Translations under genes and position numbers: made by a program
Part shown: positions 41,614 through 58,500 of the stretch, piece after piece
How positions within the stretch are numbered: position 1 is the stretch's first letter
Layout: the number at the start of each line of letters is the position of its first letter
Notes under the pieces: generated by a model
What the model saw: only the letters and a program-made list of their open reading frames with translations
Told to the model about the DNA's origin: nothing
Database searches by the model: none
Origin: Dongia rigui
Lineage (GTDB): Bacteria > Pseudomonadota > Alphaproteobacteria > Dongiales > Dongiaceae
Reading direction: 5' to 3'
NCBI RefSeq assembly: GCF_034044635.1
Contig: NZ_JAXCLX010000003.1
Coordinates: forward strand, 541,789-605,788
DNA: 64,000 nt

Positions 41614-43020
41614 CTAGTAACCCTTGGGGCGCGGCCAGGCCATGGTGAACTGGTCGCCGCGCCGCACATATTTATAGCGGAAGAGGACGAACCAGACGGA
41701 AGCGACGATGTAGAACACCATCATGGCGAGGAGCTGCGTGCCGAAGCCGAGGAACACCGCGATGTAAGTGGCCGCGCACAGTGCCAGCAGCACCAGCGAC
41801 GGAATCGGGTGGAACGGATGGATATAGCCCCGCTTGATCGTGTCGAGCGGCCATTTCCCGCGGAAGCGGAACATGTTGATCGGCATGAAGGTATAGCCGA
41901 GCAGACCCGACAGGATCGAGAAAGTGATCGTCGGCGCCAGCAGCTGCAGGAAGCCGAACGATGCCGCGATCGGAATGAGGAAGATGATCGCGCGGTAAGG
42001 CGTGCGGTATTTGGGATGCACCGCCGCGAAGAATTGCGGCAGATAGCGGTCGCGGCCCATCGAGAACCAGGCGCGCGCCGCATCGTTGATGCAGCCATTG
42101 GCCGAGGCAAGCGCCGAGAACACGGTGCCGACCCACAGCAGCACGATGAGCACGGTGCTGCCCGAGACACGCGCCGAGTCATAGAGCGGTGCCAAGGCGG
42201 TGCCGAGATATTCCCAGGGCAGCGACCCGGCGCAGACATACCAGGTAAGCGCCGCGGCAATGAGCAGCGTGATCATGCCCGTCATGGTGCCCAGCGGCAG
42301 CGACCGACCGCAGGAGCGCACTTCTTCGGCCGCCTGGCAGGTACCCTCGATGCCGAGGTAATACCAGATGCCGAATTGGAAGGCGGCCAGCACGCCCATC
42401 CAGCCATAGGGCAGCGAGCCCATGCCGAGGCCTTCATGCTGCAGCGGTTCGGCGGTGAAGATACCGAACTGGTAGGCCACGACCAGCACGATGATGGAGA
42501 AGAACGCCACCGCCGTGATCAGGAAGTTGACCGACAGCGCCATGAAGACGCCGCGGTAATTGAGGAAGGCGAGGGCCGAGACGGCCAGCAGCACGAAAGG
42601 TCGTGCATCGACCATGCCGGGTTCTGCGCCCAGGCTTTCCGACGCGATGCGGATGAGATCGCCGAAGACGAAAATGTCGGCAGCTTCCAGCATCGTATAG
42701 GCCAGCACCAGATAGAGGCCGACATTGAAGGCCATCAGCGGTCCAGTGGTGTGCTTGGCCTGGGTGTATTGACCACCGGCGGCGGCCACGGTCGATGTCA
42801 CTTCGGAATCGATCATGGCGACGCAGGTATAAAGCAGGCCGATAATCCAGCAGGCGATGATGGAACCCAGCGCGCCGCCTTTCTCGACCGAATAATTCCA
42901 ACCCATGAACTCGCCGACGAGCACGATGCCGACGCCCAACGCCCAAACATGGGTCGGACCCAGCACCTTCACGAGGTTGATGGAGGATGGCTTTTCGCCG
43001 TTCGCAGTCATGTCTGTCAT
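41614..43020 (-). CDS. APC-family amino acid/amine permease
   Basis: A 468-residue secondary transporter with about twelve hydrophobic segments. The first helix holds the APC-type substrate loop GVGIVLVGEFMGWNYS near residue 35. The sequence is close in style to ethanolamine permeases and amino acid transporters of that group. The ATG after GAGGGG was preferred to an upstream start. It is the last gene of a four-gene unit whose first three genes encode small membrane proteins, downstream of gmaS. The context predicts uptake of methylamine, gamma-glutamylmethylamide or another small amine; substrate is inference. Confidence 0.88.
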   Translation of the reverse strand: MTDMTANGEKPSSINLVKVLGPTHVWALGVGIVLVGEFMGWNYSVEKGGALGSIIACWIIGLLYTCVAMIDSEVTSTVAAAGGQYTQAKHTTGPLMAFNVGLYLVLAYTMLEAADIFVFGDLIRIASESLGAEPGMVDARPFVLLAVSALAFLNYRGVFMALSVNFLITAVAFFSIIVLVVAYQFGIFTAEPLQHEGLGMGSLPYGWMGVLAAFQFGIWYYLGIEGTCQAAEEVRSCGRSLPLGTMTGMITLLIAAALTWYVCAGSLPWEYLGTALAPLYDSARVSGSTVLIVLLWVGTVFSALASANGCINDAARAWFSMGRDRYLPQFFAAVHPKYRTPYRAIIFLIPIAASFGFLQLLAPTITFSILSGLLGYTFMPINMFRFRGKWPLDTIKRGYIHPFHPIPSLVLLALCAATYIAVFLGFGTQLLAMMVFYIVASVWFVLFRYKYVRRGDQFTMAWPRPKGY

Positions 43021-43031
43021 GGCGGTGCCCC

Positions 43032-43229
43032 TCAACCCCTCTTATGGCCGTCTTGCTGCATGGCAAGCTCGTCGACGCCTTCCTGAGAACTGGTCAGGAT
43101 GTCTTCGCTGTATTGCTGGCTGACGCGGATCGCATCCCAGATCATCCAAAGCAGCAGCAGGATGGAAACGAGCCACGCGCCTGCCTGGATAAGGTCCCAG
43201 GGCCCGCGGAATTGCAGAAAATCAAGCAT
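43032..43229 (-). CDS. Small single-span membrane protein beside the permease
   Basis: A 65-residue protein with one central span (LIQAGAWLVSILLLLWMIWDA) and a polar C-terminal tail (QYSEDILTSSQEGVDELAMQQDGHKRG). A purine-rich GGGGGAAACC precedes the ATG. It ends 11 bases before the permease start and begins 15 bases after the 159-residue gene, so it is tightly embedded in the operon. No family recognised. It is a likely accessory subunit of the transporter by position only. Confidence 0.7.
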   Translation of the reverse strand: MLDFLQFRGPWDLIQAGAWLVSILLLLWMIWDAIRVSQQYSEDILTSSQEGVDELAMQQDGHKRG

Positions 43230-43244
43230 GGTTTCCCCCGTCCC

Positions 43245-43724
43245 TTAAGAACCGTTGCCGAACTTCTCGGCGATGACCTGGCGATATTCGCGGTCCGATT
43301 GCCAGACCAGGAAGATGAAATAGCCAGCGATCGCGGCGAGCGTCGCGATGAGGCCACCCCAACTGAAGGAATAGTCGTAGCGCAGCGTGATCGCCGCGGC
43401 GGCAGTTTCGAGATCCATCCCGAGCTTGCCCCACTGCGCCTGCATCACCGGGGTCTGCTCCAGCGCTTCCCAGGTGAGATTCTCGAAGCTGATCGTGCCA
43501 TCCGGCGCGGTGCGCTTGATCAGGCCCTTGTCGTTGCTGACCACGGTGGTGCCGTCGGTCGCGGTCTCGACGGTCATTTGCCCCGGCAGCCAATCGCCCT
43601 TCGCTGCACCGGCCAATTCCATTTCCAGCGGCACCAGCAGTGCCAGGAACACGAGCACCAGCAGGAACACGGCGTCGAATGCCTGCCCGAACCCGCTTTG
43701 CTTTGGTGGTTGATATTTTGCCAT
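43245..43724 (-). CDS. Two-span membrane protein with periplasmic domain, unknown
   Basis: A 159-residue protein with spans at about residues 18-35 (VFLLVLVFLALLVPL) and 122-142 (GLIATLAAIAGYFIFLVW). Between them is a hydrophilic, mostly beta-type domain of about 85 residues (DWLPGQMTVETATDGTTVVSN onward) that would face the periplasm. A strong GGGGAGGAAGG ribosome-binding site precedes the ATG. It belongs to the conserved-looking set of three small membrane proteins preceding the APC permease. I recognise no family. Confidence 0.75.
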   Translation of the reverse strand: MAKYQPPKQSGFGQAFDAVFLLVLVFLALLVPLEMELAGAAKGDWLPGQMTVETATDGTTVVSNDKGLIKRTAPDGTISFENLTWEALEQTPVMQAQWGKLGMDLETAAAAITLRYDYSFSWGGLIATLAAIAGYFIFLVWQSDREYRQVIAEKFGNGS

Positions 43725-43808
43725 TGCCTTCCTCCCCTACTCGGCTCGGCCGATAGCGCTGCCCCAGCCGCTTATGGTGCGGCCGCGATTATCGTCACGC
43801 GGGCAGCC

Positions 43809-44087
43809 TTAACGGTTCGCGTCCAGATGCTTGATGTCGAGTTCGTAAATGAACTTCTTGTCATGGCCGTAATGCGAGATCATTGCGGCGATGGAAGCGG
43901 TATTGAAGATGCCGACCAGGAGGCCGGCGACCGCCAGCAGGATGCGGGCACTGCCGTCCTGGATGTAACCGCTGACCGCGAAATAGACGAAAAGCAGTGT
44001 CGCCCACAGGACCACGACAAAGGCCCAGGCCCATAAGCGATCTTTATTGAACATGGAATCAACGCGCGACTGAAGGTCGTTCGCCAT
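43809..44087 (-). CDS. Small two-span membrane protein, first gene of permease operon
   Basis: A 92-residue protein with two hydrophobic segments (LWAWAFVVVLWATLLFVYFAVSGY and ILLAVAGLLVGIFNTASIAAMI) linked by a short loop, and a cytosolic tail ending DIKHLDANR. The ATG at 44087 follows GGGGAG and is clearly better than an upstream in-frame start. It is the promoter-proximal gene of the unit with the 159- and 65-residue proteins and the APC permease. No family recognised. Confidence 0.75.
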   Translation of the reverse strand: MANDLQSRVDSMFNKDRLWAWAFVVVLWATLLFVYFAVSGYIQDGSARILLAVAGLLVGIFNTASIAAMISHYGHDKKFIYELDIKHLDANR

Positions 44088-44357
44088 ATCACTCTCCCCT
44101 GAGACGGCGACCGACTTCCTTGCGGCCGCTTCATCCTGACTGAAACGTCCCGTTCTTTTTTCGGGACGGCACTCCCATTGCACGCGCCCCTTTGGGGTCT
44201 TCGTGGCGCTCCCTTCCTTGAGGAGCGACTTGGATCCGTTATCGGCCCTCAAGCCGATTCGGACGTGTCATTCATGGCACTTATTAATTTTTAACACGCC
44301 ATGTATGACTTTACTAGACTTAAATGAATTTTCCTATGCGGAAACATCGCAACCGGG
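44088..44357. other. Leader/promoter region of the permease operon
   Basis: No gene is seen in this 270-base stretch, which with the gmaS terminator makes a 315-base gap. It has a seven-bp hairpin CGTCCCG/CGGGACG at 44146-44168 within the presumed 5' leader, and two smaller self-complementary patches near 44190-44225. An AT-rich block (44281-44335) is unlike the surrounding GC-rich sequence and probably contains the promoter. I could not fix -35/-10 elements. Confidence 0.5.
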
Positions 44358-44393
44358 AAGAAAAACGCCCGGACCACATGGACCCGGGCGTTT
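44358..44393 (-). terminator. Rho-independent terminator of gmaS
   Basis: AAACGCCCGG (44363-44372) and CCGGGCGTTT (44384-44393) form a perfect ten-bp stem with an 11-base loop. On the minus strand the stem exits into TTCTTCC. It begins ten bases after the gmaS stop codon and separates the synthase operon from the permease operon. Confidence 0.85.
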
Positions 44394-44402
44394 CGCCTGT
44401 CA

Positions 44403-45710
44403 TCAGCAATCGAGCGTGTTGTGCCGCTCCCACTCGGTGAGGTGCTTGGTGTAGCTGTTCCATTCCTCGGTCTTCATGCGCACATAGGCGTTGACGAAGC
44501 TGTCGCCGAATTGCTCGCGCACCACCTTGCTGCTGTCGGTGAGGCGCAGCGCGTCGAGAAGATTGAGCGGCAGCTTGCGCCCGCCCTTCACGGTATGGCC
44601 TTCGGTATACATGTTGATGTCGAGGCGCTTGCCCGGATCGCGCTTGTTGTCGATGCCGTCGAGACCCGAGGCGACGATGCCCGCCTGCAGCAGATAGGGA
44701 TTGGCCGAGCCGTCGGCGAGGCGCAATTCGAAACGGCCTTCGTCCGGCACGCGGATCATATGCGTGCGGTTGTTGCCGGTCCAAGTGATGGTATTAGGTG
44801 CCCAGGTGGCACCCGAAACGGTGCGCGGCGCGTTGATGCGCTTATAAGAATTGACCGTCGGGTTGAAGAACGAGCAGAGCGCATCGGCATTGTGCTGAAT
44901 GCCGCCCAGGACCTGATAAGCGAGCTTGGAAAGACCCAACTCGCCCTTCGGATCGCTGAAGAGGTTCTTCTTGCCAGACGCATCCCAGAACGAGATATGG
45001 GCGTGGGCGCCGTTGCCGGTCAGCGTGCTGAAGGGCTTGGGCATGAAAGTGGCGCGCAGGCCGTGGTTCTCGGCAATCGACTTCGCCATGTATTTGAAGA
45101 AGACGTGGCGATCAGCCGTCTTGAGGACGTCGTCATATTCCCAGTTCATCTCGAACTGGCCATTCGCGTCCTCATGGTCATTCTGATAAGGCTTCCAGCC
45201 CAAGGTCAGCATGGCGTCGCAGATCTCGGTGATGACGTCATAGCGGCGCATCAGAGCCAGCTGGTCATAGCAGGGCTTATCCGCCGTATCGGCGTCATCG
45301 GCGATCTGCTTGCCATCGGGCGTGATGAGGAAGAATTCGCATTCGACGCCGGCCTTGGCGCGCAAACCCTTCTTGGCCGCTTCGGCGATCTTGCGCTTCA
45401 GCAAATTGCGCGGTGAATCGGCAACGGGCTTCCCGTCCATCCAGAGATCGGAAGCGAGCCAACCCACTTCCGGTTTCCACGGCAGCTGGATGAGGCTCTC
45501 AGGGTCGGGCTTGGCGAAGAGATCGGGATGGGCCGGCGTCATGTCCAGCCAGGTCGCGAAACCGGCGAAACCAGCGCCGTTCTTCTGCATCTCCGCGATC
45601 GCGGCGGCGGGCACGAGTTTGGCGCGCAGCGCGCCGAAGAGATCCGTGTACGAGATCAGAAAGTATTTGATCTTGCGGTCCTTCGCCACCTTGGCGAGGT
45701 CGGTTGCCAT
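44403..45710 (-). CDS. gmaS: Gamma-glutamylmethylamide synthetase (GlnA-like, type III)
   Basis: A 435-residue glutamine-synthetase-fold ligase. GS landmarks are present: DLFGALRAKLVP near residue 22, ECEFFLITPDGK (metal-binding Glu) near 123, the NGAHAHISFWD nucleotide/metal motif near 230 and FFNPTVNSYKRINAP near 288. Context identifies the subgroup: it follows mgsC, mgsB and mgsA and lies in the same block as mgdA-D, so it probably ligates methylamine to glutamate (ATP-dependent) as the first step of the N-methylglutamate pathway. A true glutamine synthetase of the GlnT type would look similar; the choice is by neighbourhood. A GAGAGGGG ribosome-binding site is present. Confidence 0.85.
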   Translation of the reverse strand: MATDLAKVAKDRKIKYFLISYTDLFGALRAKLVPAAAIAEMQKNGAGFAGFATWLDMTPAHPDLFAKPDPESLIQLPWKPEVGWLASDLWMDGKPVADSPRNLLKRKIAEAAKKGLRAKAGVECEFFLITPDGKQIADDADTADKPCYDQLALMRRYDVITEICDAMLTLGWKPYQNDHEDANGQFEMNWEYDDVLKTADRHVFFKYMAKSIAENHGLRATFMPKPFSTLTGNGAHAHISFWDASGKKNLFSDPKGELGLSKLAYQVLGGIQHNADALCSFFNPTVNSYKRINAPRTVSGATWAPNTITWTGNNRTHMIRVPDEGRFELRLADGSANPYLLQAGIVASGLDGIDNKRDPGKRLDINMYTEGHTVKGGRKLPLNLLDALRLTDSSKVVREQFGDSFVNAYVRMKTEEWNSYTKHLTEWERHNTLDC

Positions 45711-45809
45711 GCTAGTTCCCCTCTCGGTTAAAGCCTCAAACTACCTGTTTCGTCTTGTTCTTATGCCGGCGGGCGACCCCTATCGACCGCCGCCGGTATT
45801 CTTGCGTCT

Positions 45810-47141
45810 TCAGTAACGGTCCTTGCCCGGGATCCAGTTGGTGCCGGCCAGCGGCACCCCCGCCATCGCCGCCGATTCCACGGTGAGCGCCACCAGATCG
45901 TCTGGTTCCAGATTGTGGACATGGCTCTTGCCGCAGGCACGCGCGATGATCTGCGTTTCCATGGTGAGCACGGCGAGATAATTGGCGAGGCGATGACCGG
46001 CCTTTACCGGGTCGAGCCGCGCCGCCAAGGCCGGATCCTGCGTCGTGATGCCGGCAGGATCCTTGCCTTCGTGCCAATCGTCATAGGCGCCGGCCGTCGT
46101 GCCGAGCTTCTTATACTCGGCCTCGAGGCTCGGCGAATTGTCACCCAGCGCAATCAGCGCCGCAGTGCCGATGGCAACCGCATCGGCGCCCATGGCGAGG
46201 CACTTCGCCACGTCGGCACCATTGCGAATGCCGCCGGAGACGACGAGCTGCACCTTACGGTGCATGTCGAGATCCTGCAGCGCCTGCACGGCCGGACGGA
46301 TGGCGGCGAGGATCGGCAGGCCGACATGCTCGATGAAGACTTCCTGCGTCGCCGCCGTACCGCCCTGCATGCCGTCGAGCACGACCACATCGGCGCCGGA
46401 CTTCACGGCCAAGGCCGTGTCGTAATAGGGACGGGTGGCACCAACCTTCACATAGATCGGCTTTTCCCAATTGGTGATCTCGCGCAGCTCGGTGATCTTG
46501 ATGGCAAGATCATCAGGGCCGGTCCAATCCGGATGCCGGCAGGCCGAGCGTTGATCGATGCCGATCGGCAGGTTGCGCATCTTGGCGACGCGTTCGGTGA
46601 TCTTTTGCCCCAGCAGCATGCCGCCGCCGCCGGGCTTCGCCCCTTGGCCGACGACGACTTCAATGGCATCGGCCTTGCGGAGGTCGTCCGGATTCATCCC
46701 GTAGCGCGAGGGGAGGAGCTGATAGACCAGCTTCGATGAATGACCGCGCTCTTCCGGCGTCATGCCGCCGTCGCCCGTGGTCGTGCTGGTCCCCATGGCG
46801 GAGGCACCGCGACCCAGGGCTTCCTTGGCATTGCCCGACAATGCGCCAAAGCTCATGCCGGCAATGGTCACCGGTATCTTGAGCTCGATCGGCTTCTTGG
46901 CAAAGCGTGTGCCGAGCACGACGTCGGTGCCGCATTTCTCGCGGTAGCCTTCCAGCGGATAGCGCGAGATAGAGGCACCAAGAAACAGCAGATCATCAAA
47001 ATGCGGCACCCGGCGCTTGGCGCCACCACCGCGGATGTCGTAGATGCCGGTCGCCGCCGCGCGCTGGATCTGGGCGATCGCGTCCTGGTCGAAGGTCGAA
47101 GAGAAACGCGGCGGTGTATAGAAGGGGCTGTGGTCACTCAT
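45810..47141 (-). CDS. mgsC: N-methylglutamate synthase subunit C (FMN-binding GltB-like)
   Basis: A 443-residue flavoprotein corresponding to the FMN-binding synthase domain of glutamate synthase. FMN/barrel motifs include IAGMSFGALSGNAKEALGRGA near residue 92, the GQGAKPGGGGMLLG loop near 165 and the phosphate-binding region SGGIRNGADVAKCLAMGADAVAIG near 295. It would condense 2-oxoglutarate-bound intermediates with methylamine-derived nitrogen to yield N-methylglutamate. The ATG at 47141 was chosen over earlier starts lying inside its own GAGGGGG ribosome-binding site. It is encoded 17 bases after mgsB. The related GlxD/GltB3 annotation is the alternative name. Confidence 0.88.
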   Translation of the reverse strand: MSDHSPFYTPPRFSSTFDQDAIAQIQRAAATGIYDIRGGGAKRRVPHFDDLLFLGASISRYPLEGYREKCGTDVVLGTRFAKKPIELKIPVTIAGMSFGALSGNAKEALGRGASAMGTSTTTGDGGMTPEERGHSSKLVYQLLPSRYGMNPDDLRKADAIEVVVGQGAKPGGGGMLLGQKITERVAKMRNLPIGIDQRSACRHPDWTGPDDLAIKITELREITNWEKPIYVKVGATRPYYDTALAVKSGADVVVLDGMQGGTAATQEVFIEHVGLPILAAIRPAVQALQDLDMHRKVQLVVSGGIRNGADVAKCLAMGADAVAIGTAALIALGDNSPSLEAEYKKLGTTAGAYDDWHEGKDPAGITTQDPALAARLDPVKAGHRLANYLAVLTMETQIIARACGKSHVHNLEPDDLVALTVESAAMAGVPLAGTNWIPGKDRY

Positions 47142-47158: not shown

Positions 47159-47842
47159 TCAATACGCGTCGACATTGTCGACATGGAAATTATAGAGGCT
47201 CCGCTTGGAGCCATAGCGCTTGAACTTGCTTGGATCGGCATCGATGCCGGCCTTCTTGAGCAAGCGGCCCAGCTTTTCGACGTGATGCGGCGTCATCTTC
47301 TTCTCGATGCAATCGGAGCCGAGGCTCTCGACCTTGCCCTGCACGTATAGCCGCGCCTCATAGATCGAATCGCCAAGGCTCGCCCCCGCATCGCCGCACA
47401 CGACCAGCGCACCGCTCTGGGCCATGAAGGCGCTCATCGCACCGACCGAGCCTTTGACGACGATATCGACGCCCTTCATGGAGATGCCGCAACGCGTACC
47501 CGCATCGCCCTCGATGACCAGAAGACCGCCTTGCGCCGTGGCGCCGGCAGCGGAGCTTGCGGTGCCTTTGACGCGCACTTCACCGGACATCATGTTTTCG
47601 GCAACACCAACACCGCACTGGCCATGGATGACGACTGTCGCCTTCTGGTTCATGCCGGCGGCGTAATAACCGATATGGCCGTTGATATGAACCTCGATCG
47701 GCTGGGTCAGGCCCACGGCGCAGGCATGCTCGCCGTGGAGATTGTTCAGATGCCAGACCTTTTCATTGGTATCGGCCGGCAGGCTCTGGAGCTTCTGGTT
47801 GACGTCGCGGAGCGGCGTCTTGGTCAAGTCGAAGGCATTCAT
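47159..47842 (-). CDS. mgsB: N-methylglutamate synthase subunit B (GXGXG domain)
   Basis: A 227-residue right-handed beta-helix protein equivalent to the C-terminal GXGXG domain of glutamate synthase large subunit. Periodic glycine turns are visible from about residue 60 to 180 (INGHIGYYAAGMN, GQCGVGVAENMMSG, GDAGTRCGISMKG, GDAGASLGDSIYEARLYVQG). It has structural rather than catalytic roles in the three-piece synthase. The gene starts two bases after the mgsA stop codon and is followed by mgsC, the usual mgsABC order. Confidence 0.9.
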   Translation of the reverse strand: MNAFDLTKTPLRDVNQKLQSLPADTNEKVWHLNNLHGEHACAVGLTQPIEVHINGHIGYYAAGMNQKATVVIHGQCGVGVAENMMSGEVRVKGTASSAAGATAQGGLLVIEGDAGTRCGISMKGVDIVVKGSVGAMSAFMAQSGALVVCGDAGASLGDSIYEARLYVQGKVESLGSDCIEKKMTPHHVEKLGRLLKKAGIDADPSKFKRYGSKRSLYNFHVDNVDAY

Positions 47843-47844
47843 GA

Positions 47845-48744
47845 TCAGTGCAGGCTCCAGCTATAGACGGTGGCGGGGGCCGGTTCCCAGATCTTGGCCT
47901 TCTCGATATTGGGGAGATAGGCGAGGCTGCGGAATTCCGACGCCATCGCCACCCAATCGTCGTTCTCGGCAAGGACCGCCGGCTTGCAGGCGACACCATC
48001 GCGCAGGACTGCGAAGCCGTCCTTGGTGCCCATGGTGAAGGTGAAGAAGCCGTCGAGATCGGAAAGGCCGGCTTCGAGCGCCTCCTTCAGCGTGGCGCCC
48101 TCGCCGAGGCGATGGGCGAAATAGCGCGCCGCCACTTCCGAATCGTTGTCGGTGTCGAATTCCTGGCCCTGCTTCCGAAGCCATTTGCGCAAATTGTTGT
48201 GGTTGGAAAGCGAGCCGTTATGGACCAGGCACATGTCCGGGGCCGGCGTGAAGGGATGCGAATGCTCGGTCGTCACGGCGCTTTCCGTGGCCATCCGGGT
48301 ATGGCCGATGGCGTGGCTGCCCTGCATGCCGGCCAGGCCGTACTTCCTGGCGACATCGGCCGGCAGGCCCATGTCCTTGTAGACTTCCATGAGCTTGCCA
48401 TAGCCCATGATGCGCACATCCGGCTGCTTGGCCTTGACCCAGGCGACGACAGCCGCCTCGGTGGTGTCGGCCGTCACCAGCGCATGGTTCCCACGCAGCT
48501 CGACATCCACCTCGACGCCGAGATCGGCACCCATATCGCCGGCGAGCTTGCGCCAGGGGAAGGCTTCGTTGGCGTTGAACAGCGTGATCTTGCTGCGCTT
48601 GCCGCTGACCGGGCTGTGATAGACGGCGATGCCGGCACTGTCCGGGCCGCGATCGGTCATGCCGATCAGCATGGTTTCCAGATGCTTGCCGAGCGTCGGC
48701 TTCAGCGCCGGGTTTTTGAGGAATAGACCAACGATGCCGCACAT
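47845..48744 (-). CDS. mgsA: N-methylglutamate synthase subunit A (class II glutamine amidotransferase)
   Basis: A 299-residue N-terminal-nucleophile amidotransferase. The chain opens MCGIVGLFLKNP, so Cys2 becomes the nucleophile after Met removal. IGHTRMATESAVTTEHSHPF near residue 145 and LVHNGSLSNHNNLRKWL near 172 hold the glutamine-binding and oxyanion residues. In the synthase this subunit would release methylamine from gamma-glutamylmethylamide. It is the first gene of the mgsABC-gmaS run, with a candidate promoter 58 bases upstream. An equivalent GlxB label is used in rhizobia. Confidence 0.9.
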   Translation of the reverse strand: MCGIVGLFLKNPALKPTLGKHLETMLIGMTDRGPDSAGIAVYHSPVSGKRSKITLFNANEAFPWRKLAGDMGADLGVEVDVELRGNHALVTADTTEAAVVAWVKAKQPDVRIMGYGKLMEVYKDMGLPADVARKYGLAGMQGSHAIGHTRMATESAVTTEHSHPFTPAPDMCLVHNGSLSNHNNLRKWLRKQGQEFDTDNDSEVAARYFAHRLGEGATLKEALEAGLSDLDGFFTFTMGTKDGFAVLRDGVACKPAVLAENDDWVAMASEFRSLAYLPNIEKAKIWEPAPATVYSWSLH

Positions 48745-48801
48745 GGCGCATGTCTCCCTGTCAGAGGGCGAGAAGCGGCCGGGCCGGGCCGCGCTGGCCT
48801 A

Positions 48802-48829
48802 AAGATAGCCGGCAGGCAGCCCCTGTCAA
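48802..48829 (-). promoter_or_regulatory. Candidate sigma-70-type promoter of mgsABC-gmaS
   Basis: On the minus strand a perfect TTGACA (48824-48829) is followed 16 bases later by TATCTT (48802-48807), four of six to TATAAT. It lies 58-85 bases before the mgsA start. Just upstream, a GTTTC direct repeat around an A/T run (about 48834-48861) could bind a regulator. The XRE-cupin gene lies immediately beyond. Confidence 0.6.
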
Positions 48830-48892
48830 GGATAATGAAACTTTTTTTACTGTGAGGAAACTCTATTCCTGGGAGATCTTTTCCGCTTTCTC

Positions 48893-48968
48893 GTCATCCC
48901 CGGGCGCAGACCCGGGGATCCAGTTCCAGCAGGCAATACTGGATGCCCGGGTCAAGCCCGGGCATGAC
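48893..48968. repeat. Dispersed palindromic repeat, family A, copy 3
   Basis: The 76-base element opens GTCATCCCCGGGCGCAGACC and closes GGTCAAGCCCGGGCATGAC. It matches copy 1 in both arms while the spacer differs. It lies between the XRE-cupin regulator and the mgsA promoter, both on the minus strand, so it would be transcribed as part of the regulator's 3' region and could terminate it. Confidence 0.9.
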
Positions 48969-48986
48969 GAAAGGTCAAATGCCGGA

Positions 48987-50835: not shown

Positions 50836-51566
50836 TGCTCCAGGTCGCGGAGGGCGGTGAGACCCACTGGCTTGATGCCGAATTCCTGGCCGGCATCCAT
50901 CAGGCAGGACCACAGATATTCCGCCGAGGCGATATCCGCCAGCACGTGATAGGCGGCATGGGCGCGGCCGTCTTTGCCCTTGCGGTCGGCGCGGATGATG
51001 ATGGCACTCATCTTGGCGACCGAGGTCTGGGCGATCTGGCCATCGGCAAAGCGGTCGCGGCGCAAATCGACGCCGCACATTTTCGAGAACATCTCCGGCG
51101 CGAATTCGCCGGCCAGCATGAACCAGCCATGGCTGTCCTGTCGGGGCAGCGGATAGCCTTGCTGCGGCCGGGGTGCGGCTGCCGCCCATTGCCAGGCCGC
51201 GTTCAAGCGCTGCATCAGCGCGCCCGATCCGGCAAGCGAATCCAGGAGGAAGATTTCGGTCGGCGCCAGCCGCGCTGCCATTTCCCCACCCGGCTGGGTA
51301 TAGGCGACATTGCTGTCAGCGCCGATATTAAGGCCCTGAGCCGTCAGCCATTCGGCCGTGCCGCGGCCCTTGAAACCAGCATGCGGCATCACCGAGAGAT
51401 CCGCCAGCGCCAGACGCCGGGCGCTCGCCAGTTCCGCCTCGCGCGCGGCACCGAAACTGAGTGCCACGGCGGCACCATTCACCTCGCCGAATTCGGCGCC
51501 GAGTTTGACCAGCTCACGGTAGATGAAGCTGCGGCGCTTGAAGCTCGTGGGATTGATCGCGTTCAT
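50832..51566 (-). CDS. mgdD: N-methylglutamate dehydrogenase subunit D (SoxG-like)
   Basis: A 244-residue protein resembling the gamma subunit of heterotetrameric sarcosine oxidase. It has a GcvT-related fold with no cofactor of its own. Segments such as GLNIGADSNVAYTQPGG near residue 72 and the C-terminal half (LRRDRFADGQIAQTSVAKMSAIIIR) fit the family. It is the fourth structural gene in the order A-B-C-D and starts after a GGAG located inside the end of mgdC. Alone it could equally be called soxG; the mgs and gmaS genes nearby favour the N-methylglutamate enzyme. Confidence 0.82.
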   Translation of the reverse strand: MNAINPTSFKRRSFIYRELVKLGAEFGEVNGAAVALSFGAAREAELASARRLALADLSVMPHAGFKGRGTAEWLTAQGLNIGADSNVAYTQPGGEMAARLAPTEIFLLDSLAGSGALMQRLNAAWQWAAAAPRPQQGYPLPRQDSHGWFMLAGEFAPEMFSKMCGVDLRRDRFADGQIAQTSVAKMSAIIIRADRKGKDGRAHAAYHVLADIASAEYLWSCLMDAGQEFGIKPVGLTALRDLEQ

Positions 51567-51567: not shown

Positions 51568-54486
51568 TCACATCTCCTGCCGCTTGTTCTCGGGGTCGTA
51601 GAACGGATATTTCGTCACGACACCGGTGATGCGCCGACCACCCTCGACCTTGATGGTGAATTCGGTGCCGGGTGCCCCGTCATCGCCATGCACATAAGCA
51701 AGGCCCACCACCTTGCCGACGCTGGGCGATTTCACCGCCGAGGTGACGCGACCCACGATCTCCTCACCCTTGAGCACCAGATGGCACTCCTCGGGACAGG
51801 GATCGGAATCGTTCTTCAATGTAAAGCCGACGAGTTTGCGCGCCAGTTTCATCTTGCCCATGATCTCGGTCGACTTGCCACCGACGAAGAACGGCTTGGT
51901 CTTGGCCAACGCCCAGGGCATGTCGGCTTCCCAGACATTGGTAAGACCGTCGGTATCCTGGCTGACGATGATGTGGCCCTTCTCCAAGCGCAGCACGCGC
52001 TGCGCCTCGACGCCGAACGGGCGGATGCCTTCGGGCTTCCCCGCTTCCATCAGCGCGTCCCACAAGGCTTCGCCATAGCCCGCGGGGACGTGGATTTCGT
52101 AACCCAACTCGCCGACGAAGCCGACGCGCATCAGGCGCGCGGGGATGCCGGCGACCGTGCCCATCTTGACGCCCATATAGGGAAAGCCTTCCGGCGACAG
52201 GTCGATATCCGTGCAGACCTTCTGCAGCACGGCGCGGGATTTGGGCCCGGCGATGTTGACGCCGCAAAGCGCTGCCGTGACATTGGCGACATCGACATCG
52301 AGCCGCCATTGCGCGTTCCAGAACAGCATCTGGCGATAAACGCTATCGACACCACTGGTCGTCGCCGTCACGTAGAAATGCTCGTCATGGAACCGGCAGG
52401 CAACACCGTCATCGGTAATGACGCCGGCATTGTCGGTCATCAGCACATAGCGCGAGCGGCCAATCGGCTGCTTGGTGTAGCTGAACGTATACATGCGGTT
52501 GAGGAATTCGGCGGCATCGGGCCCCCGCACATCGAGACCGCCCAGGGTCGAGACATCGATGAGGCCGACATTCTGGCGCACCGCCTTCACTTCCGTCTCA
52601 ATCGCCTGCGCGCGGTCGGCTTTGCCGCCGTAATAGGCAGGGCGCCACCAGACACCGGCCGGCATCATCTGCGCGCCCAGTTCCAGATGGCGGTGATGCA
52701 TCGCCGTGCGCCGTTCCGGGTCGAAGACGCGGCCGGCCAAGTGACCGAACTTCTCCGGCGTATAAGGCGGGCGCTGCGTCGTCACACTCATGCCGGCAAT
52801 GTCGACGCCGGTCTCGCGCGAGACGATACGCACCGAGGTCACGGCCGAATGGCGGCCCTGGCTCGGCCCCATGCCGACGGTGGAATAGCGCTTCAGCAAT
52901 TCGACATTGTCATAGCCGTCAGCAATGCCGTTGATGAGATCGTGATATTTAAGGTCCTCGTCGAAATCGACGAAGTCGAAGCCGCGATCATGCGGAAAGA
53001 TCGGCCAGGGATGGGTGCGGCCGACATTGCCCCTCTCGGCGATGGGTGCCGGCACCGCAGCGACGGTGAGGCCCGCATCGCGGGCGGCCGCGAGACCCGC
53101 CCGCTTGCCATCGGCGATGACGGACCCCAAGTCATAGACATTGTTGACCGAACCCGCCGCATGGACCTTTGCCGGCAAGTCGACCGGCTGGAACATGTCG
53201 GATTGGCGGCAATAGCCGAATTTTGCGCCGGCATGATGCAGCAGTTGCCCGGCCGGGCTGAAACCCACCGACATCAGGATGAGATCGCAGGCAACCGACT
53301 TGCCGCCCGTTCCCAGCCTGCCCTCACCCGTGACCGGTGCCAGGGCAGCCCCTGAGATATGCGTCTTGCTGGCATAGAGCGCTTCGCTGATCGCATGGCC
53401 CGCCAAAATCTCGACACCGCGCGCCCGGACGGCGGCCACCAGAGGCGTCGCCGGGACGCTCTGCCGCAAATCGGCAATGGCTGCGACCGTGACACCCGCA
53501 TCGATGAGGTCGAGTGCTGCGCCATAGGCATCGTCATTGGCGGCAAGAATGACGGCGGTGCGGCCTGGGCGCACGCCATAGAGCTTGATGAGGCGTTGCG
53601 CGGCCGAGGCCATCATGACGCCCGGCAGATCGTTGTTGCGGAAGACCGCCGGCTGCTCGATCGAGCCGGTCGCGACCACGATCGATTTGGCACGCAGCTT
53701 ATAAAAGCGGTTGCCCCTGATCAGCGGAATCCAATTGTCCGAGAAAAGGCCGGAGCAGATCGTGCCGGTCATGACGGTGACGCCCTTGGCACCGCCCAGC
53801 ACGCGCTCGAAATCGCCAAGCTGGCGCGTGGCCGAGATGCCTTCCGCGTCGAAGCGCGCGTAACCGAGCGAACCGCCCAGCGCCGCATTCTCCTCGATGA
53901 GGATCACATCGGCACCGGATTCGGCCGCGGCCTGGGCTGCCGCAAGTCCCGCCGGTCCGCCGCCGATCACGGCAACATCGGCAAAGAGGTATTGCTTGTC
54001 GTAATAGCTCTCGTGGAAATCGGCCTTGGGATCGATGGCGCCAAGACCCGTCATGGCGCGGACGACCGGCTCCCAGAACGACCAGGACTGCTTCTTCTCA
54101 TGGAAGGTCTTGTAATAGAAGCCCACCGGCAGGAAGCGGTGAACAAGTTCCACCACCCGCGCCATGTCGTTGTCGAAGGAACCGAAATAGTTCTGCGCCT
54201 TGACCTTCAATCCGTTCTTGGCCGGGTATTTGTCAGCCAGGCAATTGGGTTCGTCTGAGAGCTGCACCAGCGTGTTGGCATCCTGCCCCGCCATGGTCAG
54301 CACACCGCGCGGGCGATGATATTTGAACGAGCGCGAGATCATCCACTGGTCGTTGGCACAGAGTGCCGAGGCGATCGTGTCGCCCTTGAATCCTTCGATA
54401 GTGCGGCCTTCGAAATCGAAAGTCACGGTCTCGCTGCGGTCGAGGAGGCGGCCGAAAGGTGCCGGCAGGCGGTTGACATTGCTCAT
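51568..54486 (-). CDS. mgdC: N-methylglutamate dehydrogenase subunit C (SoxA-like, folate/FAD)
   Basis: A 972-residue multidomain flavoprotein corresponding to the alpha subunit of heterotetrameric sarcosine oxidase. The order is: an N-terminal ferredoxin-like region (DFEGRTIEGFKGDTIASALCAN) to about residue 100; an NAD/FAD-binding domain with VAVIGGGPAGLAAAQAAAESG near 175 and a second dinucleotide motif near 315; a bridging region; and a GcvT-type tetrahydrofolate-binding domain from about 590 to the end. The folate domain would accept the methyl carbon as methylene-tetrahydrofolate. The ATG overlaps the mgdB stop by one base. The start uses GGAG eight bases upstream. Confidence 0.88.
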   Translation of the reverse strand: MSNVNRLPAPFGRLLDRSETVTFDFEGRTIEGFKGDTIASALCANDQWMISRSFKYHRPRGVLTMAGQDANTLVQLSDEPNCLADKYPAKNGLKVKAQNYFGSFDNDMARVVELVHRFLPVGFYYKTFHEKKQSWSFWEPVVRAMTGLGAIDPKADFHESYYDKQYLFADVAVIGGGPAGLAAAQAAAESGADVILIEENAALGGSLGYARFDAEGISATRQLGDFERVLGGAKGVTVMTGTICSGLFSDNWIPLIRGNRFYKLRAKSIVVATGSIEQPAVFRNNDLPGVMMASAAQRLIKLYGVRPGRTAVILAANDDAYGAALDLIDAGVTVAAIADLRQSVPATPLVAAVRARGVEILAGHAISEALYASKTHISGAALAPVTGEGRLGTGGKSVACDLILMSVGFSPAGQLLHHAGAKFGYCRQSDMFQPVDLPAKVHAAGSVNNVYDLGSVIADGKRAGLAAARDAGLTVAAVPAPIAERGNVGRTHPWPIFPHDRGFDFVDFDEDLKYHDLINGIADGYDNVELLKRYSTVGMGPSQGRHSAVTSVRIVSRETGVDIAGMSVTTQRPPYTPEKFGHLAGRVFDPERRTAMHHRHLELGAQMMPAGVWWRPAYYGGKADRAQAIETEVKAVRQNVGLIDVSTLGGLDVRGPDAAEFLNRMYTFSYTKQPIGRSRYVLMTDNAGVITDDGVACRFHDEHFYVTATTSGVDSVYRQMLFWNAQWRLDVDVANVTAALCGVNIAGPKSRAVLQKVCTDIDLSPEGFPYMGVKMGTVAGIPARLMRVGFVGELGYEIHVPAGYGEALWDALMEAGKPEGIRPFGVEAQRVLRLEKGHIIVSQDTDGLTNVWEADMPWALAKTKPFFVGGKSTEIMGKMKLARKLVGFTLKNDSDPCPEECHLVLKGEEIVGRVTSAVKSPSVGKVVGLAYVHGDDGAPGTEFTIKVEGGRRITGVVTKYPFYDPENKRQEM

Positions 54487-54791
54487 CACTTCTTCTCCCC
54501 GGCGCCGGCCTTCGCCGCAAACTCGACACGCGTGTTGAACACCTCGGTTGCCGGATAGGTCTTGATGATCTCATCCGTGATGTTGTTGCGCTCGGCGATG
54601 AACCAGTAGGAGGTGGGCACATGGCACCACCATTCGCGCACGACGCCCGCCTCGTTGGCTTCCAGGAACAGCCAGGCGGCCCATTCCTTGTCGCCGACAC
54701 CGGCCGGATCCGGCATCGGCTTCACCTCGCCACCCCAGGCGAATTCGCTGATATTGCGGGGCCCGTTCAAGGGGCAGTTCATGACTTTCAT
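54486..54791 (-). CDS. mgdB: N-methylglutamate dehydrogenase subunit B (SoxD-like) with reduced zinc site
   Basis: A 101-residue protein equivalent to the delta subunit of heterotetrameric sarcosine oxidase. The family signature is NCPLNGPRNISEFAWGGE at residues 5-22. In the characterised sarcosine oxidase subunit, as I recall it, zinc is held by Cys6, Cys9, His59 and Cys63. Here the corresponding residues read Cys6, Asn9, His57 and Ser61, so two cysteine ligands are missing. The protein probably keeps its structural role without zinc. The start (MKVMNCP) follows AGGGAG; a longer frame upstream has no family character. Confidence 0.85.
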   Translation of the reverse strand: MKVMNCPLNGPRNISEFAWGGEVKPMPDPAGVGDKEWAAWLFLEANEAGVVREWWCHVPTSYWFIAERNNITDEIIKTYPATEVFNTRVEFAAKAGAGEKK

Positions 54792-54807
54792 GGCTATGCT
54801 CCCTCTC

Positions 54808-56064
54808 TCAATGGCCGACCGAGGCCGCACCTTTTTCGCCGACCTGCTGATAGTCGACGAAACGGTCCAGATAGAACGGCTTGATGAGATCGTGCGGACT
54901 GTCATGGGCGATGGTGTGCGCCATGGTCATGCCGCAGACCGGCGTTGCCTTGAAGCCCCAGGTGCCCCAGCCGCTGTCGATGTAATAATTCTTCACCGGG
55001 GTAAGGCCCATGACGGGGCTGAAATCCGGCGTCATGTCGGTCATGCCGGCCCATTGCCGCATCACCTTCACCTCGCCCAGCATGGGCAGAAGCTCCAGCA
55101 TGTGGCCGAGCAGGCCTTCCTTGAAGTCGAGTGTCGAGCGCGTGCCATAGAGGCCGTAGGGGTCGGTCGAGCCGCCCATCACCAATTCGCCGCGCGAGCT
55201 CTGGCTCACGTAAACATGGAGCGAGCCGGAGACGATGATCTGGTCGAGGAACGGCTTCAACGGCACGCTGACGCAAGCCTGCAGCGGGATCGTTTTGATC
55301 GGCAGGCGGAAGCCCGCCATCTTGGCGACGACCGAGGTATTGCCGGCCACCGCCTGCATCACCCGGTTGGCATAGACCGTGCCGCGCGGCGTCTGCACGC
55401 CCTTGATTGTCCCATTTTCGACAATGAGGCCGGTGACCGGCGTCTGCTGATGGATCTCGACGCCGTGTTTGGCGGCACCGCGGGCATAGGCCCAGGCGAC
55501 CGCGTCATGCCGGGCGATCGACCCCGGTGGGTGATAGAGCGCCCCCATGATCGGATAGCGCACATGGTCCGACATGTTGAGATGCGGGCAGAGCTTGGCA
55601 ATATCGTCCGGATAGATCAGTTCCGAATCGACCCCCAGCTGCTTGTTCACCTCGGCGCGCCAGCGGCTGGTGCGCACGGCAGCGTCGGTGTGGGCGAGCG
55701 TGAAATGGCCGCGCTCGGAATAGAGGATGTTGAAGTCGAGTTCCTGCGAAAAATCGCGGTAAAGCTTCAGCGATTGCTCGTAAAAGCGCACGCCTTCCGG
55801 CGTCAGATAGTTGGAGCGGATGATCGCCGTGTTGCGGGCCGTGTTGCCGCCGGCCAGATAGCCGCGCTCCAGAATGCAGACATTGGTGATGCCGTGGGTC
55901 TTGGCAAGATAATAGGCGCAGGCCAAGGCATGACCGCCGCCGCCAATGATCACCACGTCGTAGGATTTCTTGAGATCCTGCTGCTTCGGGATGAAGCGCT
56001 CGGCCGGATATTTCTTGCGGAAGCCGTAACGCAGGATCTTCAGTGGGACAAAGGCCGGGATCAT
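54808..56064 (-). CDS. mgdA: N-methylglutamate dehydrogenase subunit A (SoxB-like flavoprotein)
   Basis: A 418-residue DAO-family flavoprotein corresponding to sarcosine oxidase beta subunit. The dinucleotide motif VVIIGGGGHALACAYYLA is near residue 38, GGNTARNTAIIRSNY near 72, and RHDAVAWAYARG near 177. The last contains the His to which FMN is covalently attached in characterised homologues. The substrate would be N-methylglutamate, oxidised to glutamate with transfer of the methyl carbon to folate or its release as formaldehyde. It is the first gene of mgdABCD plus the coupled regulator. The ATG at 56064 was chosen over a TTG two codons earlier. Confidence 0.88.
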   Translation of the reverse strand: MIPAFVPLKILRYGFRKKYPAERFIPKQQDLKKSYDVVIIGGGGHALACAYYLAKTHGITNVCILERGYLAGGNTARNTAIIRSNYLTPEGVRFYEQSLKLYRDFSQELDFNILYSERGHFTLAHTDAAVRTSRWRAEVNKQLGVDSELIYPDDIAKLCPHLNMSDHVRYPIMGALYHPPGSIARHDAVAWAYARGAAKHGVEIHQQTPVTGLIVENGTIKGVQTPRGTVYANRVMQAVAGNTSVVAKMAGFRLPIKTIPLQACVSVPLKPFLDQIIVSGSLHVYVSQSSRGELVMGGSTDPYGLYGTRSTLDFKEGLLGHMLELLPMLGEVKVMRQWAGMTDMTPDFSPVMGLTPVKNYYIDSGWGTWGFKATPVCGMTMAHTIAHDSPHDLIKPFYLDRFVDYQQVGEKGAASVGH

Positions 56065-56177
56065 GGGCAACGCCTCGCAAGCTGTATAATGGCCGCAAGG
56101 CTATCTCAGCCGATTTTCCTTCATTGTCAATTATCGACATACGATGACGTAAAATCGGCTAGCCGGCTTTGGGCCAA

Positions 56178-57110
56178 TTACGGCAGCGGCGTCGCTTCGC
56201 TCTCGCGCGCTCGGTCGAGCAGCCATTTGCGGAGCAAGGTCGTCGCCGTCCGTGGCCTCGCGCCGATCGGCTCGACCAGATGGAAGGCGAACTCCGTCAT
56301 CAGCACTTCCTCGACCGGACGTACCAGGCGCTGGTCGTGGAGGAATTCGTCGACGAAATAGCGCCAGCCCAGGCCAACGCCTTCACCTGCGATCGCCGCC
56401 TGGATGAGGAGCGGGTAGGAGTTGAAGCGGATGCGGGCCGCCGGCAATTTGGGGCGCTGCGGCAGGCTTTGCGCCCAATCCTCCCAGGACAGCCAGCGGG
56501 GGTCGGCCGATTCATATTCCAGCAATGGCAAGGCGCAGAATTCCTCGACGCTGAGCGGCAATTTCTTGCCTTTCAGCAGCGTCGGGCTCACCACCGGAAA
56601 CATTTCGCCCCCAAACATGCGCGTGGCATTCAAGGCCGGCCAATGCCCGTCACCATAGCGGATCGCCATGTCGATGCGCTCTTCCGCAAGGTCACCGAGG
56701 GCATCGGAGGAAATGAGGCGCAGGTCGATGCTGGGATTGACGGACCGAAAGCCGGGCAAACGCGGCATCAGCCAGAAGGTGGAAAAGCCCAGGCTGGCGC
56801 CGATCGTGACGCTGCGCCGGCCCTGCTGCTGGCGCAGCGTCATGGCCGTGTCGGAGATCGACGTGAGGCCCGCCGTCACGGCGCGATAGAGAATGTCGCC
56901 TTCCGGCGTCAGGCGCATGCCGCGGCGCGAGCGGGAAAAGAGCAGCACGCCGAGATCGCCTTCCAGCTGCTGAATCTGCCGGCTGATGGCGGCCTGGGTC
57001 AGGCCAAGTTCGCGTCCCGCCGCCGTGAAGCTCTCCAGGCGGCCGGCGGCTTCGAAGGCAACCAATGAGTTGAGGGGCGGGAGCGAGCGGCGCAGCGACG
57101 GTCGGGCCAT
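56178..57110 (-). CDS. LysR-family regulator (GcvA-like)
   Basis: A 310-residue LysR regulator. The winged helix-turn-helix is at about residues 10-65 (LNSLVAFEAAGRLESFTAAGRELGLTQAAISRQIQQLE). The effector domain starts near 95 (VTIGASLGFSTFWLMPRLPGF) and fits the GcvA/choline-responsive subgroup. It is upstream of mgdA on the same strand with 113 bases between and divergent from the Rieske oxygenase across 199 bases. It could control either or both. The ATG is preferred over a TTG six codons before it. Confidence 0.9.
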   Translation of the reverse strand: MARPSLRRSLPPLNSLVAFEAAGRLESFTAAGRELGLTQAAISRQIQQLEGDLGVLLFSRSRRGMRLTPEGDILYRAVTAGLTSISDTAMTLRQQQGRRSVTIGASLGFSTFWLMPRLPGFRSVNPSIDLRLISSDALGDLAEERIDMAIRYGDGHWPALNATRMFGGEMFPVVSPTLLKGKKLPLSVEEFCALPLLEYESADPRWLSWEDWAQSLPQRPKLPAARIRFNSYPLLIQAAIAGEGVGLGWRYFVDEFLHDQRLVRPVEEVLMTEFAFHLVEPIGARPRTATTLLRKWLLDRARESEATPLP

Positions 57111-57309
57111 TTCCAGTTCCGTGAGCAAATGTTCGATTTCTCTATACCGCAGGGTTGCTGCGGCATAAAGCCCGCGTATGCGCGATCCGGCATCATGATC
57201 CTATCGCATGCCGCAATCACGCATCCCTGGATTTACAAGCCCCGCCATCCCCGTCATGAAAGCACCAATGCCCCCGTCCGGCATCCGCCTTTCATCGGAG
57301 TAACAGCCC

Positions 57310-58500
57310 GTGCAACCAGCACTCGCCAGCAATCATCCCCAGGGGCGCTTGCCTTTCGACCCAGCCGCTATCGCCCGTGTGCTGCAGCCGATCGAGATCG
57401 CCCGCGGCCTGCCCAACGAGGCCTATGTCAGCGCTGAATTTCGCGTGTTCGAACGCGACCGCGTCATCGCCAAGACCTGGTTCTGCATCGGCTTCGGCCG
57501 CGACGTACCCCATGCCGGCGACGCCTTCCCCAGCGACGTGCTGGGCCTGCCCGTCATCATGGTGCGGCGCGAGGATGGATCGATCGGCGTCTTCCACAAC
57601 GTCTGTTCGCATCGCGGCGCACAGCTGCTGACCGAGCCCTGCAATGTCGCCAAGCGCTTGCGCTGCCCCTATCATGCCTGGCTATACGATCTCGATGGCA
57701 AGCTGATCGCCACACCCCATATCGGCGGGCCAAAGACCAATGCCGTGGATGGCTTCGACAAAAGTCAGCATGGCCTGAAGCCTGTGCGGCATGCGGTCTT
57801 CTGGGACATGGTCTTCGTCAACATCAGCGGCGATGCGGAACCGTTCGAAGATTTCGTGAAGCCGCTCACCGACCGCTGGGGCGATTTCGACATGCGCCAG
57901 ATCCGTCATCCAGGTGCGGTGGGCAGCCTGAAGCTCGACGTCAATTGCAACTGGAAGCTCGCGGTCGAGAATTACTGCGAGGCCTATCACCTGCCCTCGA
58001 TCCATCCGGGCCTCAACTCCTATTCCAGGCTCGAGGACCATTACAACATCGAGGAGCCGGATCATTTTTCCGGCCAGGGCAGCCACGCCTACACCCCGCT
58101 ATTGGTCAAGGACGGCCCGGGCCTGCCGCAATTCCCGAACCTGCCGGCACGCTGGGACAAGGCCGCCGAATATACCTCGCTTTTCCCCAACGTGCTGCTC
58201 GGCATCCACCGCGACCATTATTACGCCATCCGCCTCGAGCCAATCGCGCTGGGACAGACCCGCGAGCATCTGGAAATCTATTACGTCGGCGACGATTCCG
58301 CCGACCCGGTCTATGACGCCACCAAGGCCGCCAATCTCAAGGCCTGGCAGACGGTCTTTGCCGAAGATGTCGACGTGGTCGAGCGTATGCAGCGCGGGCG
58401 CCAGTCACCGGCTTATGATGGCGGTGTATTCTCGCCCGCCATGGATGGGCCGACGCATTGTTTCCACCGCTGGCTCGCCAAGAGGCTCCTGGCGGCGTAA
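57310..58500 (+). CDS. Rieske non-haem iron oxygenase, large subunit
   Basis: A 396-residue oxygenase alpha subunit. The Rieske cluster ligands are in CSHRGAQ (Cys-x-His) near residue 98 and CPYHAWLYD (Cys-x-x-His) near 118. The mononuclear iron His residues are in NYCEAYHLPSIHPG near 225, with a later acidic ligand near DVDVVER. Sequence and length fit the group that includes choline/glycine-betaine/carnitine and similar N-demethylating oxygenases, as well as aromatic ring hydroxylases. No reductase is encoded next to it. It begins with GTG nine bases after GGAG. Placement beside mgdA-D suggests oxidative N-demethylation of a methylated amine, which is inference. Confidence 0.85.
   Translation: MQPALASNHPQGRLPFDPAAIARVLQPIEIARGLPNEAYVSAEFRVFERDRVIAKTWFCIGFGRDVPHAGDAFPSDVLGLPVIMVRREDGSIGVFHNVCSHRGAQLLTEPCNVAKRLRCPYHAWLYDLDGKLIATPHIGGPKTNAVDGFDKSQHGLKPVRHAVFWDMVFVNISGDAEPFEDFVKPLTDRWGDFDMRQIRHPGAVGSLKLDVNCNWKLAVENYCEAYHLPSIHPGLNSYSRLEDHYNIEEPDHFSGQGSHAYTPLLVKDGPGLPQFPNLPARWDKAAEYTSLFPNVLLGIHRDHYYAIRLEPIALGQTREHLEIYYVGDDSADPVYDATKAANLKAWQTVFAEDVDVVERMQRGRQSPAYDGGVFSPAMDGPTHCFHRWLAKRLLAA

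Follow-up and report, generated by a model that had tools for sequence, protein, structure and literature searches.

A methylamine nitrogen-assimilation locus of Dongia rigui with a six-gene permease unit, a candidate amine importer

We analysed a 64,000-nucleotide stretch of the Dongia rigui genome (hereafter the window, in whose positions all coordinates are given) that carries genes of the N-methylglutamate (NMG) pathway of methylamine use, followed by a six-gene unit built around an APC-superfamily permease. We mapped the genes by their open frames, start sites and matches to protein families. A first-pass annotation had placed mgsABC, gmaS and mgdABCD on one strand with only two regulator genes between them and had read them as a complete NMG pathway; both statements held, since these are long open frames of the expected families and all of the gmaS, mgsABC and mgdABCD-type genes are present. 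On the minus strand, the order from 5' to 3' is LysR, mgdA, mgdB, mgdC, mgdD, GlxA/AraC and XRE-cupin, and then mgsA, mgsB, mgsC, gmaS, sm1, sm2, sm3, APC, hypA and hypB. A Rieske gene lies on the plus strand, divergent from the LysR–mgd side. We consider it moderately likely that the block serves methylamine nitrogen assimilation and includes a six-gene amine importer. The pathway itself is known, and the novelty lies in the six-gene unit. The features are as follows.

40539–40829, minus strand: hypB, small membrane protein of 96 residues, sixth in the permease unit (conserved order, two hydrophobic segments)
40826–41512, minus strand: hypA, 228 residues, N-terminal membrane helix and beta-rich domain, fifth in the unit (conserved order, AlphaFold2)
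41614–43020, minus strand: APC-superfamily permease, 468 residues (PF13520/PF00324)
43032–43229, minus strand: sm3, one-helix peptide of 65 residues (one hydrophobic segment, position conserved)
43245–43724, minus strand: sm2, 159 residues, two membrane helices and a loop domain (alignments)
43809–44087, minus strand: sm1, 92 residues, two membrane helices, conserved C-terminal tail (alignment)
44403–45710, minus strand: gmaS, gamma-glutamylmethylamide synthetase, 435 residues (TIGR03105, 7cql_A match)
45810–47141 (alternative start 47153), minus strand: mgsC, FMN-binding glutamate synthase-like subunit (PF01645 Glu_synthase)
47159–47842, minus strand: mgsB, GXGXG subunit (PF01493)
47845–48744, minus strand: mgsA, amidotransferase (GATase) subunit (PF13522/PF13537)
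48987–49736, minus strand: XRE-cupin regulator (PF01381 and PF07883)
49843–50835, minus strand: GlxA/AraC-family regulator, 4-base overlap with mgdD (PF12833 and PF01965)
50832–51566, minus strand: mgdD (GCV_T, weak soxG)
51568–54486, minus strand: mgdC, 972 residues (Fer2_4, Pyr_redox_2, SO_alpha_A3, GCV_T, GCV_T_C)
54486–54791, minus strand: mgdB (PF04267 SoxD)
54808–56070, minus strand: mgdA, 420 residues (PF01266 DAO, aligned to 1vrq_B, tree)
56178–57110, minus strand: LysR regulator, GcvA-like, adjacent and not core (family match)
57310–58500, plus strand: Rieske oxygenase alpha subunit, adjacent and not core (PF00355, PF00848)

In the established pathway, GmaS couples methylamine to glutamate to give gamma-glutamylmethylamide, MgsABC turns this product into N-methylglutamate, and MgdABCD oxidises N-methylglutamate to glutamate and passes the methyl carbon to tetrahydrofolate. 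The window locus would run these steps in that order, regenerating glutamate. Its grouping of gmaS, mgsABC and mgdABCD resembles that on Paracoccus aminophilus pAMI6 and Aminobacter aminovorans pAA01 and, by the description available for it, that of Methyloversatilis universalis FAM5. NMG genes are also grouped in relatives of the same family, so the arrangement goes beyond chance.

The 435-residue ligase scored 671.5 bits against TIGR03105, for which the cut-off is 469.6, and it aligned with chain 7cql_A from residue 3 to the end, with 67% identity over 332 columns. A passage of PMC7948447 names residues of the GmaS protein RhGmaS, among which A48 and W300 replace an Asp and a Glu of glutamine synthetase and so distinguish the two enzymes. 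All 11 residues compared (K30, A48, Y147, Q175, D177, E179, E186, N188, R288, W300 and R312) were kept in the window protein under a numbering offset of 20 for 7cql_A, which was picked because all 11 then fit. From this fit we infer that 7cql_A is the RhGmaS of that paper. The window protein shows no difference of note from this GmaS structure, and on these sequence grounds we firmly assign the ligase as GmaS; the earlier identification of it as GmaS and not a true glutamine synthetase thus passed its check. MgsC is 83% identical to the P. aminophilus copy and 82% identical to the Aminobacter copy, and across the compared loci identities to the window proteins are 64–73% for GmaS and 81–83% for MgsC.

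Three small genes, the smallest encoding 65 residues, separate gmaS from the permease gene, and hypA and hypB occupy the same place in relatives of the locus. The first-pass annotation had an APC permease operon at one end of the block; the linkage of the transporter stood, whereas its extent had been undercounted by the two genes at 40826–41512 and 40539–40829. We define the unit as sm1-sm2-sm3-APC-hypA-hypB in this order, and the window carries it. Searches of sm1, sm2, sm3, hypA and hypB against Pfam and NCBIfam gave no match over cut-off, and hypB had only sub-threshold Pfam matches. Hydrophobic segments number two in sm1, two in sm2, one in sm3 and two in hypB; in hypA there is a strong one at the start and a marginal one within the beta domain. 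The AlphaFold2 model of hypA (pLDDT 90.8, pTM 0.87) has a long helix at its N-terminus and a domain rich in beta strands, for which a fold search of the PDB and viral libraries gave no match at E<=0.001. Residues invariant among 42 hypA sequences include R38, D80, R85, W91, R111, K167, E168, R187 and R194. The sm2 model was weak to moderate (pLDDT 71.8, pTM 0.39), too weak for a fold search. In the window's lineage, sm2 (43245–43724) has about 33 extra loop residues between its helices relative to copies from Rhodobacterales and Rhizobiales.

The permease matched 11 NCBIfam models, all of them below cut-off. The best of these, the ethanolamine permease model TIGR00908, gave 173.8 bits against a cut-off of 381.75, so that the protein is not a member. 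Like TmoP (NF053774), it is an APC permease of methylated-amine users; unlike TmoP, it had no match to this trimethylamine N-oxide (TMAO) permease model (cut-off 690 bits) at E<=0.001, and a TmoP over the cut-off is encoded elsewhere in the genome. Solved structures related to it, at 24–55 bits, comprise SLC7-type chains and, from bacteria, 5oqt and 6f34. SLC7 transporter chains have been solved with a partner protein. The window protein resembles these heteromeric transporters in being an APC permease, but it differs in that the likeness amounts to 24–55 bits only and the partners here are of unknown families.

To follow the unit in other bacteria, we scanned named genomes with an sm2 alignment. 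Of the 126 relatives returned, we kept the 80 loci whose sm2 was most like that of P. aminophilus. Labels beginning with L or G denote the loci and genomes compared, the window genome being G000. In 76 of the 80 loci, all found through sm2, the six genes occur in one order. The exceptions are L047, L079 and L103, which end too early, and L112, in which hypB was not found. Median gaps between successive genes are 8, 10, 10, 58 and -4 bases; individual loci have larger ones, of up to 958 bases between APC and hypA. The order is present on named plasmids (P. aminophilus pAMI6, where the unit is divergent from mgsA; A. aminovorans pAA01, where it lies about 17 kb from gmaS; and those of Paracoccus sp. 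MA, Pseudohalocynthiibacter, Rhizobium RCAM05350 and Pararhizobium qamdonense), and the cultured genera with the unit include Aminobacter, Paracoccus and Sinorhizobium. Directly before the unit of P. qamdonense lies a glutamine-synthetase-like ligase (L041:5968-7320) that matched four models, each below its cut-off. Mesorhizobium sp. 1M-11 (L094), also among the 80, grows on methylated amines according to the abstract of PMC4653772. Among plasmids, the same 22 records carry sm2 and an APC permease of 64–71% identity, and the other 12 records with an APC permease have proteins of 27–30% identity, 11 of them annotated as ethanolamine permease; the unit is therefore discrete, and this APC clade comes with companions. 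Literature searches, which covered open-licence papers in PMC, yielded no description of the six-gene unit.

The unit is tied to GmaS across genomes. For 36 of the 80 loci, the flanking sequence fetched encoded a GmaS of more than 300 bits; the remaining 44 genomes were searched whole, and 41 gave a GmaS at E<=1e-120 (those without were L047, L051 and L091). GmaS was thus present in 77 of the 80 unit-bearing genomes, compared with 49 of 289 genomes in a class-wide sample searched at the same limit, which serves as background in place of the orders concerned. Among 17 genomes of the window's own order, 15 had sm2, 15 had GmaS and 14 had both; the unit, or its visible part, directly follows gmaS in eight of these genomes, the window's included, and stands away from gmaS, with the six genes in order, in six (L145–L150). 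Two loci fetched for their Mgd contain it as well: L161, from another family of the same class, where mgs and mgd adjoin the unit, and L165, from a different class, where gmaS, mgs and mgd do. Other genes of methylated-amine use (tmoP-type, HODM/DmmA-type, tmm or tdm) neighbour the unit in part of the 80 loci, and a tmoP-like gene does so in all of L145–L150, which also speaks for a link to methylated amines. Gene content, the identity of GmaS, the fixed order of the six genes and the genomic tie to GmaS are all features of the sequences themselves.

These results suggest that the six-gene unit is probably a dedicated, perhaps multi-subunit, methylamine importer of the NMG pathway. The APC permease would carry methylammonium into the cell, a substrate that we infer from the company of the gene, and sm1, sm2, sm3, hypA and hypB may assemble with the permease or control it. 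The enzymes that act on methylamine are known, and a unit that accompanies GmaS in 77 of 80 genomes would be a candidate additional uptake system. According to a passage of PMC8292978, an amt gene follows gmaS-mgsABC in Pseudomonas C5pp and is called a methylamine transporter, so Amt-type channels are a known alternative for uptake. A figure legend in PMC5520151 on Ruegeria pomeroyi and Methylocella names amtB for uptake, and the abstract of PMC5023235 describes homologues of an ammonium transporter and of an amino-acid permease that respond to methylamine in FAM5. The predicted importer would be a methylammonium importer unlike the Amt-type one of Pseudomonas C5pp.

Several observations weigh against this reading. 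Most genomes with GmaS lack the unit: in the 289-genome sample, GmaS occurred in 49 and sm2 in five, four of which belong to the window's genus and the fifth of which (G086, an incomplete genome) had no GmaS. Three of the 80 genomes with the unit gave no GmaS, and because the 80 loci were found via sm2 and many are related, the 77 do not amount to 77 independent cases. At least one of the gmaS, mgdA, tmoP-type, HODM/DmmA-type, tmm or tdm genes lay near the unit in 46 of the 80 loci, and in the other 34 the flank, which was sometimes short, held none of the methylated-amine genes sought. A search for a shared operator upstream of sm1, mgsA and mgdA (16-base words, up to three mismatches) gave 0–2 matches per pair, which lies inside the spread obtained from 30 simple shuffles. 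In addition, the genome has a second SoxA/SoxB-like pair (C4), which resembles Mgd of the Paracoccus type more closely than does the Mgd of the window and could be the NMG enzyme instead.

A more specific form of the importer reading, which we put forward tentatively, takes the unit for a heteromeric APC transporter of bacteria that carries methylammonium, in which a permease of an unnamed clade depends on hypA and on the four small membrane proteins. Should the small proteins be subunits, this would be a new build in the APC superfamily, a bacterial system with obligate partner subunits. The permease might instead work alone, the five accessory proteins being separate small membrane proteins or a sensor. 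Their status as subunits is a prediction from conserved position, and the sm2 model is moderate, both of which leave room for this view. The shared gene order and tight spacing of 76 of the 80 loci, albeit loci found through sm2, argue against it, as does the presence of sm2 in all 22 plasmid records with an APC permease of at least 64% identity. On balance we find a permease working alone somewhat unlikely.

Another alternative is that the unit moves di- or trimethylamine, ethanolamine or a pathway intermediate, or exports surplus ammonium or amino acid. Consistent with this, the nearest curated family of the permease is the ethanolamine permease, far under its cut-off, and neighbours for other methylated amines occur in part of the 80 loci: tmoP-type genes in nine, HODM/DmmA-type genes in nine, tmm in eight and tdm in seven, one representative of each type having been checked by a curated model. 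In Pararhizobium, the ligase encoded ahead of the unit is glutamine-synthetase-like and scores below the TIGR03105 cut-off. Moreover, a tmoP-like gene stands near the unit in all six of the gmaS-distant family loci L145–L150 (45–58% identical to the checked TmoP) and on both Paraburkholderia plasmids with the unit (L040 and L042; 46%), which makes another substrate somewhat likelier. By contrast, the genome-wide companion of the unit is GmaS, in 77 of 80 genomes, and TMAO already has a permease of curated score in the window genome. We therefore regard a different cargo as unlikely, and import of methylammonium stays our preferred reading.

The LysR and Rieske genes are adjacent to the block and not core to it. 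The first-pass annotation had proposed that the Rieske enzyme extends the module to larger methylated amines. This proposal found no support, given the low conservation of the LysR–Rieske pair, the other contexts of relatives of the Rieske protein and the location of tmm, tdm and tmoP on another contig. LysR and Rieske genes lie beside mgdA in only two of the 12 relatives that show mgdA (L016 and L018) and not in the closest relative, L015; the ten without include L020, L022 and L025, whose flanks of about 1.2 kb would suffice for LysR but not for Rieske. On the other contig (L142:8272-15874, equal to G000:C2:337771-345373), tdm, tmm and tmoP each exceed their curated cut-offs, with 860.7 bits against 675 for tmm, 1177.2 against 1100 for tdm and 831.2 against 690 for tmoP. 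A search of the window genome for HODM/DmmA, a candidate for the step from dimethylamine to methylamine, gave no match at E<=0.001. Between tmm and tmoP is an open frame of 333 residues that is weakly like methylphosphonate hydroxylase.

The Rieske enzyme might still feed the block by cleaving a quaternary amine. Its best solved relative is a carnitine monooxygenase, and relatives at 50–52% identity have an aldehyde dehydrogenase gene alongside in 3/3 contexts and a BCCT transporter gene near in 2/3. Its neighbours in the window, however, are LysR and DeoR-type regulators with no aldehyde dehydrogenase or reductase, and together with the adjacency to mgdA in so few relatives this makes such feeding rather improbable. 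The protein is not a member of the glycine betaine monooxygenase family GbcA (NF058607, 146.2 bits against a cut-off of 670). We also dropped a role as a homarine enzyme as unsupported: the contexts of the three relatives do not suggest it, and the homarine literature covered mentions only a part of Mgd in homarine catabolism.

The window's Mgd differs from that of P. aminophilus and Aminobacter in belonging to another clade. Identities to other alphaproteobacterial NMG-linked copies are 42–47% for MgdA and 31–36% for MgdC. We built maximum-likelihood trees of MgdC (32 rows, each of at least 900 residues, which left out four truncated proteins, L068, L069, L083 and L087) and MgdA (43 rows), rooted at the midpoint and with long branches flagged, the C4 row among them. 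Both trees resolved two clades with support of 100/100. One contains the Mgd of P. aminophilus, Aminobacter and other NMG-linked loci together with the C4 pair; the other contains the window's family and copies from Rhizobium CCGE531, Ruegeria 43209, Pseudomonas aeruginosa RW109 and Acinetobacter PK01. The window's Mgd therefore falls outside the P. aminophilus/Aminobacter type, for which we asked for placement in the same clade in both trees. Identities to P. aminophilus-type Mgd are 46% and 55% for the C4 pair and 34% and 44% for the window's Mgd.

Scores for sarcosine oxidase did not settle the matter. Against the SoxA model TIGR01372 (cut-off 1164), the window's MgdC reached 869.1 bits, under the cut-off, and the model was passed by the C4 SoxA (1517 bits), by the P. 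aminophilus MgdC (1292 bits) and by the Aminobacter MgdC (1467 bits). Because it is passed by these two MgdC proteins, the model does not separate sarcosine oxidase from Mgd. The C4 pair is SoxA/B-like by score alone and so could be a second NMG enzyme. The existence of two Mgd clades is a warning against naming these dehydrogenases by their likeness to sarcosine oxidase.

We searched 398 genomes sampled across the phylum for Mgd at E<=1e-180. Matches came from 19 genomes, of which 17 do not belong to the genus of the window; we fetched 12 of these 17 loci and left out five at 39–40% identity. An mgs or gmaS gene lay within 20 kb of window-clade mgd in eight of the 12 loci, all outside the family (L160–L163 and L165–L168), and neither was near in the other four (L159, L164, L169 and L170). 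Within the family, window-type Mgd adjoins mgs or gmaS in 12 of 14 fetched loci. Given the proximity to mgs or gmaS in 8/12 outside loci, the best reading remains that the window's Mgd is an NMG dehydrogenase of a second lineage, unlike the P. aminophilus one, with N-methylglutamate as the predicted substrate of the clade. The earlier naming of these sox-like genes as Mgd accordingly stands in part: the clade often lies near NMG genes, but it is distinct from the Mgd that other Alphaproteobacteria have in their NMG clusters.

Neighbours of the named members speak for a wider substrate range in the window's clade. These relatives, at 49–56% identity, have purU and folD alongside in three of four cases; the Acinetobacter PK01 copy is near trigonelline genes, and that on the P. 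aeruginosa RW109 plasmid is near a gene annotated as 4-methylaminobutanoate oxidase. The window's MgdABCD might thus use another N-methyl amino compound (for example, 4-methylaminobutyrate), with the NMG step elsewhere, such as in the C4 pair. This alternative gains from the placing of its closest named relatives near such or other genes and not gmaS, from the separation of the clade from the Mgd of NMG clusters, which the C4 pair joins, and from the failure of the SoxA model to separate functions, since a C4 SoxA score over TIGR01372 is no proof of sarcosine oxidase. We nevertheless consider it improbable given the adjacency to mgs or gmaS within and outside the family, and the GmaS search reported neither gmaS nor mgs at the C4 place.

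The XRE-cupin and GlxA/AraC proteins may switch the locus. The XRE-cupin gene adjoins mgsA in 12 of the 13 family loci that reach past mgsA, and the GlxA/AraC gene adjoins mgd in seven of 12; the window GlxA protein is 35% identical to the mgd-side GlxA of P. aminophilus. The nearest characterised case is TmaR (SPO1584) of R. pomeroyi, which a passage of PMC13390433 describes as an AraC-type activator of methylamine genes beside mgd. The window gene is likened to it by position and family, as an AraC-type regulator gene beside mgd, but it differs in lying downstream of mgdD. Proteins like the window XRE-cupin are encoded near NMG genes in L160, L163, L165, L166 and L167 (41–47% identity) and in L161 (69%). 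This recurrence in distant genomes hints that, besides TmaR, the pathway has an ancient regulator in XRE-cupin.

Upstream of mgsA, the interval 48745–48986 contains GC-rich inverted repeats, TGCCCGGG...CCCGGGCA and CCCCGGG...CCCGGGG, which are perhaps dispersed intergenic repeats. Beyond the six-gene unit, at 37655–39892, an open frame judged by eye seemingly fuses a segment resembling M23-type peptidases with a class-III aminotransferase.

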